NCBI GenBank assembly: GCA_913057775.1
Contig: CAJXOG010000002.1
Coordinates: 1 to 64,000, forward strand
Reading direction: 5' to 3'
DNA: 64,000 bases
DNA from: an uncultured Fodinibius sp.
Lineage (GTDB): Bacteria > Bacteroidota > Rhodothermia > Balneolales > Balneolaceae
Shown here: positions 30,391 to 34,709 of the stretch, piece by piece
How the letters are laid out: each line of letters opens with the position of its first letter
How positions within the stretch are numbered: the stretch's first letter is position 1
Translations under genes and position numbers: made by a program
Notes under the pieces: model-generated
Databases searched by the model: none
What the model was told of the DNA's origin: nothing
What the model saw: only the letters and a program-made list of their open reading frames with translations

Positions 30391-30444
30391 CAATGCTGAT
30401 CACCGTTGTAGGTGTACAACAGTTTTTCAATTCTGATATTTTTT

Positions 30445-31389
30445 ATGGAAGATCTTTCGTCCGTCGATACAAGTCTGATGCAGAAAGAGGTATTGGAGGG
30501 ATTGTCGAAACCTCAAAAGCGGTTACCCAGCAAATATTTCTATGATACAAAGGGGTCAGATCTGTTTGAGCAAATTACCCGTCTTGATGAATATTATTTG
30601 ACCGATTGCGAAAAGGAGATACTGCAAAACAATATAAAGGAGATATCAGATCGCATTGGCCCGGAAGTGATGCTGATAGAACTGGGAAGCGGTAGCAGCT
30701 ATAAAACCCGGTTTTTGCTCGAAGAATTGACAGATTTATCAACATATATTCCGGTCGATATTTCAGAAGAATTTTTGCTAAAGAACGTCAATCAGCTGCG
30801 ACTGGAATACCCCAAAATATCTATCATTCCCGTCTTTGCAGATTATACCTCCCACTTTGAGCTGCCGGTCTCCGAAAATTCGAGTCAGAAGCAGGTCGCA
30901 TTTTTTCCGGGATCAACCATCGGTAATTTTGATCCAGAAGAAGCTTGGGCATTTTTGAATAACGTAGCCGATATTACTGCCGAAGATTCTGAAATGCTTA
31001 TAGGCGTGGATTTGAAAAAAGATACCGATGTGCTGCAAGCGGCCTACAATGATCAGCAGGGAATTACAGCCCAGTTTAACAAAAATATATTGATGCATCT
31101 AAATCGAGTACTGGATGCCAATTTTGATATCGAACAGTTTAGGCATAAAGCATTTTATAATGAAGACGCCGGACGTATAGAGATGCACTTGGTATCATCC
31201 CAAAAACAAACGGTGATTATTGGTGACAAAACGATAGATTTTGAAGAAGATGAATCTATCCACACCGAAAATTCTTACAAGTATAGCCTTGAGGAATTTG
31301 AGGAGTTAGTTGCCGACTGGTACTCGGTAGAGAAGGTTTGGACGGATGAGAAGGACTATTTTTCGCTTCAGTATTTGATTAAAAAGTAA
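30445..31389 (+). CDS. egtD: L-histidine N-alpha-methyltransferase (EgtD family)
   Basis: 314 residues from the ATG at 30445; a GTG at 30412 would add eleven hydrophobic residues that do not match the family. The N-terminal signature EGLSKPQKRLPSKYFYD, GSDLFEQIT and LDEYYLT identifies EgtD, and ELGSGSSYKTRFLLEEL is the SAM-binding motif. Later FFPGSTIGNF and LIGVDLKKD fit the family. EgtD trimethylates histidine to hercynine, the first step to ergothioneine. The usual partner egtB is not in the window. A DUF427 gene follows 6 bp after the stop, and an OpuC-type ABC importer lies 0.8 kb downstream on the same strand. Confidence 0.9.
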   Translation: MEDLSSVDTSLMQKEVLEGLSKPQKRLPSKYFYDTKGSDLFEQITRLDEYYLTDCEKEILQNNIKEISDRIGPEVMLIELGSGSSYKTRFLLEELTDLSTYIPVDISEEFLLKNVNQLRLEYPKISIIPVFADYTSHFELPVSENSSQKQVAFFPGSTIGNFDPEEAWAFLNNVADITAEDSEMLIGVDLKKDTDVLQAAYNDQQGITAQFNKNILMHLNRVLDANFDIEQFRHKAFYNEDAGRIEMHLVSSQKQTVIIGDKTIDFEEDESIHTENSYKYSLEEFEELVADWYSVEKVWTDEKDYFSLQYLIKK

Positions 31390-31395
31390 GCTGTT

Positions 31396-31884
31396 ATGGA
31401 TAAAGTAGAACCGGGCCCCGGACAAGAATCAGTGTGGGATTATCCACGTCCGCCTAAGCTGGAGGACTGTGATGAGCGCATTCGGGTAGTTTTTAATGGA
31501 AAGACAATAGCAGATACAAATGATGCCAAACGTGTGTTGGAAACAAGTCATCCGCCGGTCTATTATATTCCTCAAAAAGATGTTGTAATGGATTTTTTGC
31601 AGCCGTTGCCAGATACTTCCTATTGTGAGTGGAAGGGACAGGCTAATTATTTTGATGTTACGGTAAATGGGGAAAAAGCAAATAAGGCGGCTTGGTGTTA
31701 TCCGGAACCGACCCAGCGTTTTGAGTCAATAGCGCATTATCTGGCATTTTATCCCCAGAAAATGGAGGCCTGTTTTGTAGGAGATGAAAAGGTGGATGCC
31801 CAACAGGGCGGTTTCTATGGAGGCTGGATAACAACTAATATTGTTGGGCCGTTTAAAGGAGGGCCGGGCAGTATCGGCTGGTAA
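31396..31884 (+). CDS. DUF427 domain-containing protein
   Basis: 162 residues. The DUF427 core is seen as IRVVFNGKTIADTNDAKRVLETSHPPVYYIP, then DTSYCEWKGQANYFDV and AWCYPEPTQRFESIAHYLAFYPQKM with the C-terminal FYGGWIT. The family is widespread with no established biochemical role; some members are linked to nucleotide or redox metabolism only by context. It starts 6 bp after egtD and is certainly cotranscribed with it, which makes a role in the same redox or thiol pathway plausible but unproven. Confidence 0.85.
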   Translation: MDKVEPGPGQESVWDYPRPPKLEDCDERIRVVFNGKTIADTNDAKRVLETSHPPVYYIPQKDVVMDFLQPLPDTSYCEWKGQANYFDVTVNGEKANKAAWCYPEPTQRFESIAHYLAFYPQKMEACFVGDEKVDAQQGGFYGGWITTNIVGPFKGGPGSIGW

Positions 31885-32152: not shown

Positions 32153-33160
32153 ATGATCCGGCTTCAAAATGTTACCAAAACGTTCAATAGCGATACGACG
32201 GCCGTTGATAATATTTCATTTCATGTTAAGGAGGGAGAGACGTTTGGGCTTGTTGGCACCAGTGGTTGCGGAAAAACGACCACGCTGAAAATGATCAATC
32301 GGCTGATCGAACCCACATCAGGAACCATTACTATAAACGGCAATAGTATCACTTCTCAAGAGCCCCAGAAACTGCGCCGTAATATCGGATATGTGATTCA
32401 GGATGTGGGGCTGTTTCCGCATTATACGATTGAGCAAAATATTTCTACCGTGCCGAAATTACTGGAGTGGAATGAGCGCAGGGTACAATCACGCAGTGAG
32501 GAACTTTTGGAAATGGTTGGGTTATCTCCTGAAATTTTCTCCGAACGGTTTCCCGAATCGCTAAGCGGGGGACAGCAGCAGCGCGTGGGATTGGCCCGAG
32601 CCCTGGCTGCCGATCCGTCGATTATACTTATGGACGAGCCGTTTGGCGCCCTTGATCCCATCACAAAGAGACAAATTCGAACAGAAGTCAGCAAACTGTT
32701 CAAACAGATCAAAAAGACCATTGTGTTAGTTACGCACGATATATTTGAGGCGTTTGAAATGTGTGATCGCTTATGTCTGCTTGATGAGGGCAAGATGCAG
32801 CAGATTGGAACGCCAAAAGAACTACTCTTCCATCCGGCAAGTGATTTTGTTGATTCCTTTTTGGCCTCGAACCGATTTCAGCTGGAGCTATTGAGCATAA
32901 CGATTTCTAACATATTAGAACTTAAAGAAAACTCAGAGCTGTATTGGAGTCCGCCATCGGAAAAGGACCAGCAAGATGATATTCAAGCAGACAAATCACT
33001 TTATGAGATCCTTGAAGAAATGGAGCAGCGTAACCACGAAAATGGGGCTATTATCCACCGTATTGACGGACGGGTAGCGGATTCCCTAAGCTTTAGCGAC
33101 CTTCTAAATCGTTTTCAATCCTATAAAAAGGATCTGAAAATAGGAGGTGAAGATGGTTGA
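32153..33160 (+). CDS. OpuC/ProV-type ABC importer ATPase
   Basis: 335 residues. Walker [10 protein letters not shown] (about 36-44), Q-loop in [15 protein letters not shown], signature LSGGQQQR, Walker [12 protein letters not shown] and switch His in VTHD are all intact. The closest family is the glycine-betaine/carnitine/choline (OpuCA/ProV) group, to which ergothioneine importer ATPases (EgtV) also belong. After about residue 245 only one degenerate CBS-like repeat is seen ([13 protein letters not shown]...[13 protein letters not shown]), against two in OpuCA. Its last codons overlap the start of the permease-binding fusion gene. Confidence 0.9.
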
Positions 33161-34709
33161 TTTCTGGAACTTTGTTATTACCAATCACGCAGAACTTCTT
33201 GACCAGACCGGAGAGCACGTCGGACTTACGTTTGTGTCATTGCTTATAGCAGTGATTATTGGTATTCCGTTAGGGGTCATTGCCACCCGTTTTAAGAGTA
33301 TATCCAGCCCGGTTTTGGGAGCCGTTGGAATTATCCAAACCATCCCCAGCATTGCTTTATTGGGATTTATGCTGCCACTGCTGGGTATTGGCGCATTGCC
33401 AGCAATCGTGGCGCTGTTCCTGTATGCGCTGCTTCCCATTGTTCGCAATACGTACTCCGGAATTGAAGAAGTGGAATCGTCGGTGAGAGAATCGGCGCGT
33501 GGAATGGGGATGACCGGCGGACAAATTTTGCGCAAGGTTGAGCTGCCGTTGGCTTCGCCGGTAATTTTTGCGGGCATCAGAACTGCAACGGTGATTAATG
33601 TGGGAGTGGCTACGCTCTGCGCACTCATTGGGGCGGGAGGATTGGGAGAGTATATATTTCGAGGTATCGCGCTAAATAACTCAGTGATGATTATGGCCGG
33701 TGCCTTGCCCGCTGCGTTGTTAGCTTTGGGATTTGATTTCGTGCTGGGACTGGTTGAGCGAAATATTTCCACGCTAATGAAACCGCTCAGCTACGGATTG
33801 GCCGTGGTTGTGATTTTTGTCTCCCTCTATTCTGTGTCGACCGTGTTTAGCGAAGATCAGTTACGTATCGGGGTGCCGCCCGAATTTTTGGAGCGGGCCG
33901 ATGGATTCGATGGGCTTCAAAAACATTATGACTTCGATATGCCGGTGGTAGAAATGAATGCCTCGCTGATGTACGAAGCCCTGCAGAATGGTCGCGTAGA
34001 TGTGGCGGTAGGCTATTCTACCGACGGACGGATTGAAGCTTTTGATCTTAAAGTATTGGAGGATGACAAACGTTACTTTCCGCCCTATGAGTGTGCACCT
34101 GTGGTGAGGCAGGACTTTGCTCAACAGAATCCCGATATATTACAGGCGATAAATAAACTGGCTGGAACCATCGATACTGAAACAATGATCCGTCTGAACA
34201 GTGCTGTAGATCACAAGGGAAAAGATGAACGGACTGTTGCCGAAGAGTTCTTACATCAAAAAGGATTTGAAACCGACATCAATCGCCAAGGAGATCCCGA
34301 AATGCTCATCGGGGGCAAGCTACAGACCGAGCAGTTTATTCTGGGGCATATGTATCGCATTCTTATCGAGAACTATACCGACCTGGATGTAGGATTGCGT
34401 CTTGGATTAGCGGGGACCCAAATTGTGTTTAATGCTTTGCTTAATGATGAAATTCAGCTTTATCCTGAGTATACGGGAACCGGACTGCATGTTTTATTAG
34501 AGCCTGTTGAGTCAACCATAGATAGTTTAGGAAATAATGCTCAAAAGGTGTACCGCTATGTAGCGAATGAATCCCAACAGCAATTTGACATCCGATGGCT
34601 CGAGCCGGTTGGATTTGAAAACACCTATGTTTTACTGATGCGGAGCAAGCAGGCTGAAAAATTGGGAATCGAGACCATCAGTGATTTAGCAAGGTTTTTA
34701 AATCAGTAA
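33153..34709 (+). CDS. OpuC-type ABC permease fused to a circularly permuted substrate-binding domain
   Basis: 518 residues from the ATG at 33153, preceded by a strong AGGAGG; an in-frame GTG at 33147 lies inside that site. Residues about 1-210 are a ProW/OpuCB permease (EAA loop near ESARGMGMTGGQILRKVELP). A last membrane helix (about 215-232) leads into the periplasmic domain. This domain has both halves of an OpuBC/ProX-type protein in reversed order: first the usual C-terminal half (33858 to about 34271: YSTDGRIEAFDLKVLEDDKR, FPPYECAPVV), then the usual N-terminal half (34299-34706: TEQFILG, YPEYTGTGL, WLEPVGFENTY, ISDLARFL). Tyrosines typical of the aromatic ligand cage are kept in both halves. 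With the ATPase it should import a quaternary-ammonium compound; betaine, choline or ergothioneine/hercynine are candidates. Confidence 0.9.
   Translation: MVDFWNFVITNHAELLDQTGEHVGLTFVSLLIAVIIGIPLGVIATRFKSISSPVLGAVGIIQTIPSIALLGFMLPLLGIGALPAIVALFLYALLPIVRNTYSGIEEVESSVRESARGMGMTGGQILRKVELPLASPVIFAGIRTATVINVGVATLCALIGAGGLGEYIFRGIALNNSVMIMAGALPAALLALGFDFVLGLVERNISTLMKPLSYGLAVVVIFVSLYSVSTVFSEDQLRIGVPPEFLERADGFDGLQKHYDFDMPVVEMNASLMYEALQNGRVDVAVGYSTDGRIEAFDLKVLEDDKRYFPPYECAPVVRQDFAQQNPDILQAINKLAGTIDTETMIRLNSAVDHKGKDERTVAEEFLHQKGFETDINRQGDPEMLIGGKLQTEQFILGHMYRILIENYTDLDVGLRLGLAGTQIVFNALLNDEIQLYPEYTGTGLHVLLEPVESTIDSLGNNAQKVYRYVANESQQQFDIRWLEPVGFENTYVLLMRSKQAEKLGIETISDLARFLNQ

Follow-up and report, generated by a model that had tools for sequence, protein, structure and literature searches.

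The locus examined here raised the question of whether a permease has become joined to a substrate-binding domain whose two halves stand in swapped order and, if so, how such a receptor would work and what it would bind. In the window, which is the whole stretch of 64,000 nucleotides that was analysed, a single unbroken open reading frame of 518 residues plus stop was found at 33153-34709 on the + strand, the strand of all window genes described below, with its ATG at 33153, an AGGAGG ahead of it and an 8-base overlap with the ATPase gene. The transmembrane permease domain (BPD_transp_1) occupies 33153-33854 (residues 1-234; profile match at residues 37-205; final helix at approximately residues 205-232). 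It is followed at 33858-34268 (residues 236-372) by the former C-terminal half of the binding domain, now first, which contains the rest of lobe D2, the second crossover and the C-terminal part of lobe D1. A new linker of approximately 11 residues at 34269-34301 (residues 373-383, ETDINRQGDPE) joins the old C and N termini and is poorly conserved, its sequence varying among homologues. The former N-terminal half, now last, lies at 34302-34706 (residues 384-518) and contains the N part of lobe D1, the first crossover and the first part of lobe D2. Directly upstream, and overlapping the fusion gene, 32153-33160 encodes the partner ATPase, an ABC protein of ProV/OpuAA type. The same strand carries EgtD, the histidine N-alpha-methyltransferase of hercynine synthesis (30412-31389; TIGR03438 395 bits, cut-off 290.9), and a DUF427 protein (31396-31884) that starts 6 bases past it. 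Four loci, namely the window, L135, L136 and L141, have a DUF427 protein adjoining EgtD or the transporter cluster.

The swapped order was evident in profile and structure-database alignments. Pfam PF04069 (OpuAC) matched the fusion protein with 187 bits (cut-off 21.2) in two stretches that together span most of the profile but stand in exchanged order, profile positions 113-256 aligning with residues 235-368 and positions 5-119 coming afterwards. When the soluble part was compared with the PDB using phmmer, residues 138-274 of the EgtUC chain (9egi) paired with query residues 2-138, and chain residues 7-135 with query residues 149-281. In all 27 matches (best E 3e-51), it was the C-terminal part of the chain that paired with the first half, and the swap was visible residue by residue in each of the best 5 of the 27 alignments, a signal well above what chance would give. 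The two halves are of full length (137 residues for the C half and 132 for the N half) and have their cage positions conserved, and they stand exchanged in one reading frame with the old ends joined, as in a circular permutant. These findings confirm the observation of a swapped-halves binding domain in a permease fusion. They bear out the original prediction that the C half comes first after the permease and the N half ends the protein, that both halves are complete with the cage tyrosines kept, and that the old ends are joined by a short linker, put there at about ten residues. The claim of a clean permutation held as well, since a frameshift or duplication remnant was ruled out by the unbroken frame and by the finding of no second OpuAC-family protein in the source genome.

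The AF2 model of the full fusion protein had a mean pLDDT of 81.5, with the receptor mostly near 90; a receptor-alone prediction from five sequences reached a pLDDT of 48, and that model was left out of comparisons. With Foldseek and VIA-align, the best whole-domain structural match of the AF2 model was the permuted OpuAC 2b4m, which was matched over its whole length and collinearly (Z 19.1, rmsd 3.7, 240 residues, model residues 236-514). The alignments of EgtUC and OpuBC with the model either covered a single half (38-45% identity) or were poor across the two. A collinear match to a permuted OpuAC but a half or poor match to the closer canonical receptors is what permutation predicts, and on the predicted model the domain keeps the fold of its parent. 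EgtUC was absent among the VIA-align matches listed, which were filled by permeases, and the aligner appears to be bound to chain order, so that this absence has no bearing on a difference in fold.

The break had been placed exactly at the hinge crossover in the original prediction, and here the mapping gave a different answer. The break after ISDL corresponds to approximately residues 364-367 of EgtUC (EgtUC numbering being chain numbering plus 229). The lobe limits of EgtUC (D1, 232-331 and 445-503; D2, 341-432; linkers between; PMC9732360) put it inside lobe D2, between the first strand-helix pair and the strand leading to E375 and R379, and a hinge location was thereby ruled out. The old chain ends lie in D1 and are now bridged by residues 373-383. 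Because the break is inside D2, the permease is tethered to lobe 2 rather than lobe 1: the last membrane helix enters D2 after approximately six residues (helix 205-232 and strand 239-241 in the model), whereas in the usual permease-receptor fusion it leads into D1. The two receptor halves align in register over the second strand, the helix and the third strand, and hhalign of half against half gave a score of 24.7 compared to at most 19.5 in 60 column shuffles, a weak match over 34 columns (P 0.0014). Binding proteins are thought to have descended from a duplicated half (PMC9815098). If the domain is indeed built from two similar halves, a chain that begins at the corresponding strand of lobe 2 would start in the way that it usually does at lobe 1, and a preference of repeated permutations for one break site would be accounted for.

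In transport, the swap would exchange the roles of the lobes, lobe 2 taking the attachment to the last membrane helix, and the pseudo-twofold architecture of the domain would be what permits this. In OpuA, the two transmembrane domains touch different lobes of the single docked receptor (PMC11065425). A D2 tether instead of a D1 tether would require just a half-turn of the receptor on a homodimeric permease, and should be tolerable because the identical subunits of such a permease would each contact one lobe. Ligand would close the lobes around the Tyr cage, after which the closed domain would dock on the paired permease subunits and import would be driven by ATP hydrolysis. Homologous importers with a lobe-1 tether in one and a lobe-2 tether in the other provide a natural experiment on the docking of fused receptors, and the need of a type I importer for a fixed receptor orientation becomes directly testable.

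Full-length homologues with the same order were found in three further genus members and one member of another genus (69-79% identity), and in other genomes at 47-56% identity. The original prediction had raised the question of whether the order is clade-wide; its occurrence proved patchy, with the permuted fusion present in 4 of 12 members of the genus and in one other genus of the family (5 of 92 family genomes), and it also extends to several other families and phyla. In an even sample of the phylum, it was present at full length in 22 of 392 genomes, the 22 having six family codes. Among the carriers with names are Dyadobacter, Mucilaginibacter, Pontibacter, Deminuibacter and Fibrella, and carriers also occurred among metagenome assemblies of Desulfobacterales and Melainabacteria. 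The permuted fusion is neither confined to a clade nor universal in it.

Architectures were scored with separate profiles for the permease, the N half and the C half. There were 32 permease-C-N fusions, 8 permease-N-C fusions (EgtU type), 9 N-C-permease fusions with a canonical receptor before the permease (L006, L007, L008, L043, L067, L088 and L129-L131) and 50 separate canonical receptors. A fifth architecture, the separate permuted receptor, was found as free-standing binding lipoproteins of Clostridia in two Peptococcaceae (L047 6649-7674 and L087 6615-7640) and one Halanaerobium (L080 2711-3706). The fused permuted forms made up one clade in a tree of un-permuted receptor halves (SH-aLRT 100), and the permease-domain tree concurred (SH-aLRT 94), so that the computation shows the fused permuted forms to have arisen once. 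The origin was likely a tandem domain duplication (N-C-N-C) with subsequent loss of the outer halves. A tandem N-C-N-C receptor of 617 aa, the kind of intermediate that a duplication-and-trimming route needs, is encoded in an Anaerolineales assembly (L082 1977-3827).

The possibility that the junction is an artefact of assembly or cloning was weighed against these data, as the original prediction had named an assembly rearrangement at 34271-34299 as the event that would undo it. The same half order recurs in genomes that were sequenced independently and belong to different species and phyla; the swap is therefore not an assembly error, and the chance of such an artefact is negligible. The permuted domain might instead be degenerate, with receptor function lost. 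The rearrangement itself and two frame-disrupted metagenome copies (L036 and L038, of which L038 is a fused permuted member with a broken permease frame) are all that speak for this; frame-disrupted copies were seen in Verrucomicrobia and Microscillaceae. Both halves are, however, under strong purifying selection (pN 0.16-0.25 versus pS 0.7-0.8), the ligand residues are nearly invariant in 32 members of several phyla, and the partner ATPase is kept next door in nearly all loci, which makes loss of function highly improbable. A further question is whether the fused clade, the clostridial free-standing forms and OpuAC descend from one ancient permuted ancestor from which canonical forms reverted. 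The break is the same in all of them, at the corresponding place in lobe 2, as that history would have it, but the free-standing permuted receptors fell among canonical receptors in the receptor-half tree. Forcing every permuted row of the family into one group cost 94.8 log-likelihood units and was rejected by the AU test (p 0.0008). B. subtilis OpuAC, moreover, is far closer to the canonical L. lactis OpuABC (E 1e-68), relative to which it is permuted at a corresponding break, than to these proteins. A common permuted ancestor is accordingly very unlikely, a single origin of all permuted members having been rejected, and the clostridial free-standing proteins arose separately from the fused clade. 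As the fused clade, the clostridial forms and B. subtilis OpuAC are separate, the same permutation has at least three origins, two of them within this subfamily. These separate origins support the view of binding proteins as two exchangeable halves.

The original prediction that no permuted form had been described stood for the Tyr-cage subfamily and for permease fusions; it did not stand for the wider family, because B. subtilis OpuAC is known as a permuted glycine betaine binder, with L. lactis OpuABC and ProX as its unpermuted counterparts, and a permutation relationship among glycine betaine binders had been reported in 2008 in the CPSARST paper (PMC2395249). Permuted receptors were thus already known, but in the open literature searched no description was found of a permuted permease-receptor fusion in the Tyr-cage OpuBC/EgtU subfamily, nor of a permuted receptor within a permease that is tied to ergothioneine genes. 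B. subtilis OpuAC (2B4L) has the same half order and the corresponding break, and ends in SIEDLKK; in contrast to the fusion, it is a free-standing lipoprotein of the Trp-cage subfamily with approximately 13% identity and a separate origin of its permutation. L. lactis OpuABC (7AHC, 7AHD, 7AHH) is also a permease-receptor fusion for quaternary amines, homodimeric with OpuAA, but has the canonical order, a tether of approximately 11 residues to the receptor N end and a Trp cage. OpuBC/OpuCC and AfProX are fellow members of the Tyr-cage receptor family, with 38-45% identity over the C half when structures are aligned, whereas their order is canonical and they are free-standing. EgtU (EgtUBC), the ergothioneine importer of Streptococcus pneumoniae and relatives, is likewise a permease fused to a cluster F-III receptor with a separate ATPase subunit, but its receptor follows the permease in canonical N-C order with a D1 tether, an order that the permuted fusion does not have. 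TpMglB-2 (Tp0684) of Treponema pallidum is a natural circularly permuted, membrane-tethered binding protein that binds ligand and closes; it differs from the fusion in its type I sugar-binding fold, in its break and in being a lipoprotein rather than a permease fusion (PMC4990184). Sequence pipelines built on the assumption of collinear domains will split the permuted fusion family or misalign it, and annotators will label it as glycine betaine transport while its genomic setting points to ergothioneine metabolism.

The pocket positions K242, T296, N339, Y341, E375, R379, D381, Y419 and Y443 and an aromatic residue at 293 are conserved. Shared with EgtU are the aromatic cage (N339/Y341/Y419/Y443) and the contacts K242, T296, E375 and R379. 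EgtU, however, has Gly244 and a Phe293/Tyr337 switch, which are ergothioneine-specific markers (PMC9732360), and the window protein is without both, with Gln at the first position (Phe in most permuted members) and Tyr/Phe at the switch; EgtU-like high-affinity ergothioneine binding is therefore not implied. The three-Trp prism of the OpuA cage was absent, as residues 235-518 contain 1 Trp and the pocket aligns to the Tyr cage. The 27 phmmer matches included OpuBC, OpuCC, EgtUC and ProX and did not include the OpuAC proteins of B. subtilis and L. lactis (2b4l, 3l6g).

EgtD was found in all 22 sampled carriers compared to 113 of 370 (31%) other genomes (p 2e-11), and EgtB in 20 of the 22; this co-occurrence is partly phylogenetic, the carriers representing 11 genera (p 2e-5). 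EgtD lay within the 6-10 kb flanks of 19 of the 32 permuted loci and EgtB within those of 17, mostly in the same gene cluster, with clusters of ATPase, fusion, EgtB and EgtD being seen. Among control loci of other architectures, egt genes were present in 5 of 69. EgtB of the permuted loci scored 522-563 bits against TIGR03440 in the three tested (cut-off 360). EgtU was described in a species that does not make ergothioneine, whereas most carriers of the permuted fusion have EgtB and EgtD. Because EgtD and EgtB accompany the fusion in this way, often in one cluster, the substrate is likely ergothioneine, hercynine or a close betaine, and uptake or recapture of such a compound is the best-supported predicted role.

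The same permuted importer could instead serve as a general osmoprotectant transporter for glycine betaine, choline, carnitine or proline betaine, its EgtD and EgtB neighbours reflecting ancestral clustering. The Tyr293/Phe337 cage is the configuration reported for betaine binders of the AfProX type and not for EgtU, the ATPase is ProV-like, and no egt genes were present within the examined stretch at L034, L039, L040 and L041. In the phylum sample, carriers lacking adjacent egt genes nevertheless encode EgtD at another genomic position, so that it is present in 22 of 22. The N-C-permease fusions also occur in EgtD genomes, and lie within approximately 5 kb of EgtD in G349, G379 and G445. E375 and R379, the ergothioneine contacts of EgtUC, are kept here, yet they are kept in most canonical relatives too. 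On balance, a general osmoprotectant role appears unlikely, though it deserves more weight than any artefact or loss of function. We consider it probable that the fusion serves as permease and receptor subunit in a type I ABC importer of a quaternary ammonium compound, the most likely candidates being ergothioneine, hercynine and close histidine betaines, and that its receptor is a naturally occurring circular permutant of the OpuBC/EgtU Tyr-cage fold. It is suggested more tentatively that type II binding proteins can exchange their two homologous halves because symmetry allows it, and have done so repeatedly, on three or more occasions at one site. Here the exchange may have re-tethered a fused receptor through the opposite lobe, so that it docks turned by approximately 180 degrees, with the operon serving both the synthesis and the import of ergothioneine-type betaines.

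EgtB was not found in the source genome, where EgtD is present near the fusion in the window; this organism may therefore make only hercynine, which deserves equal weight there as a substrate. EgtD without EgtB was also observed in most sampled members of the genus (G000-G004, G006, G009 and G011), in members of genus g41 and in several others. Such genomes either stop at hercynine or use a different sulfur-insertion enzyme in place of EgtB. At L031 (3571-4950) and in ten other loci, the transporter-EgtB-EgtD cluster is headed by a RclA/MerA-like NAD(P)H disulfide oxidoreductase, which may reduce a disulfide derived from ergothioneine.
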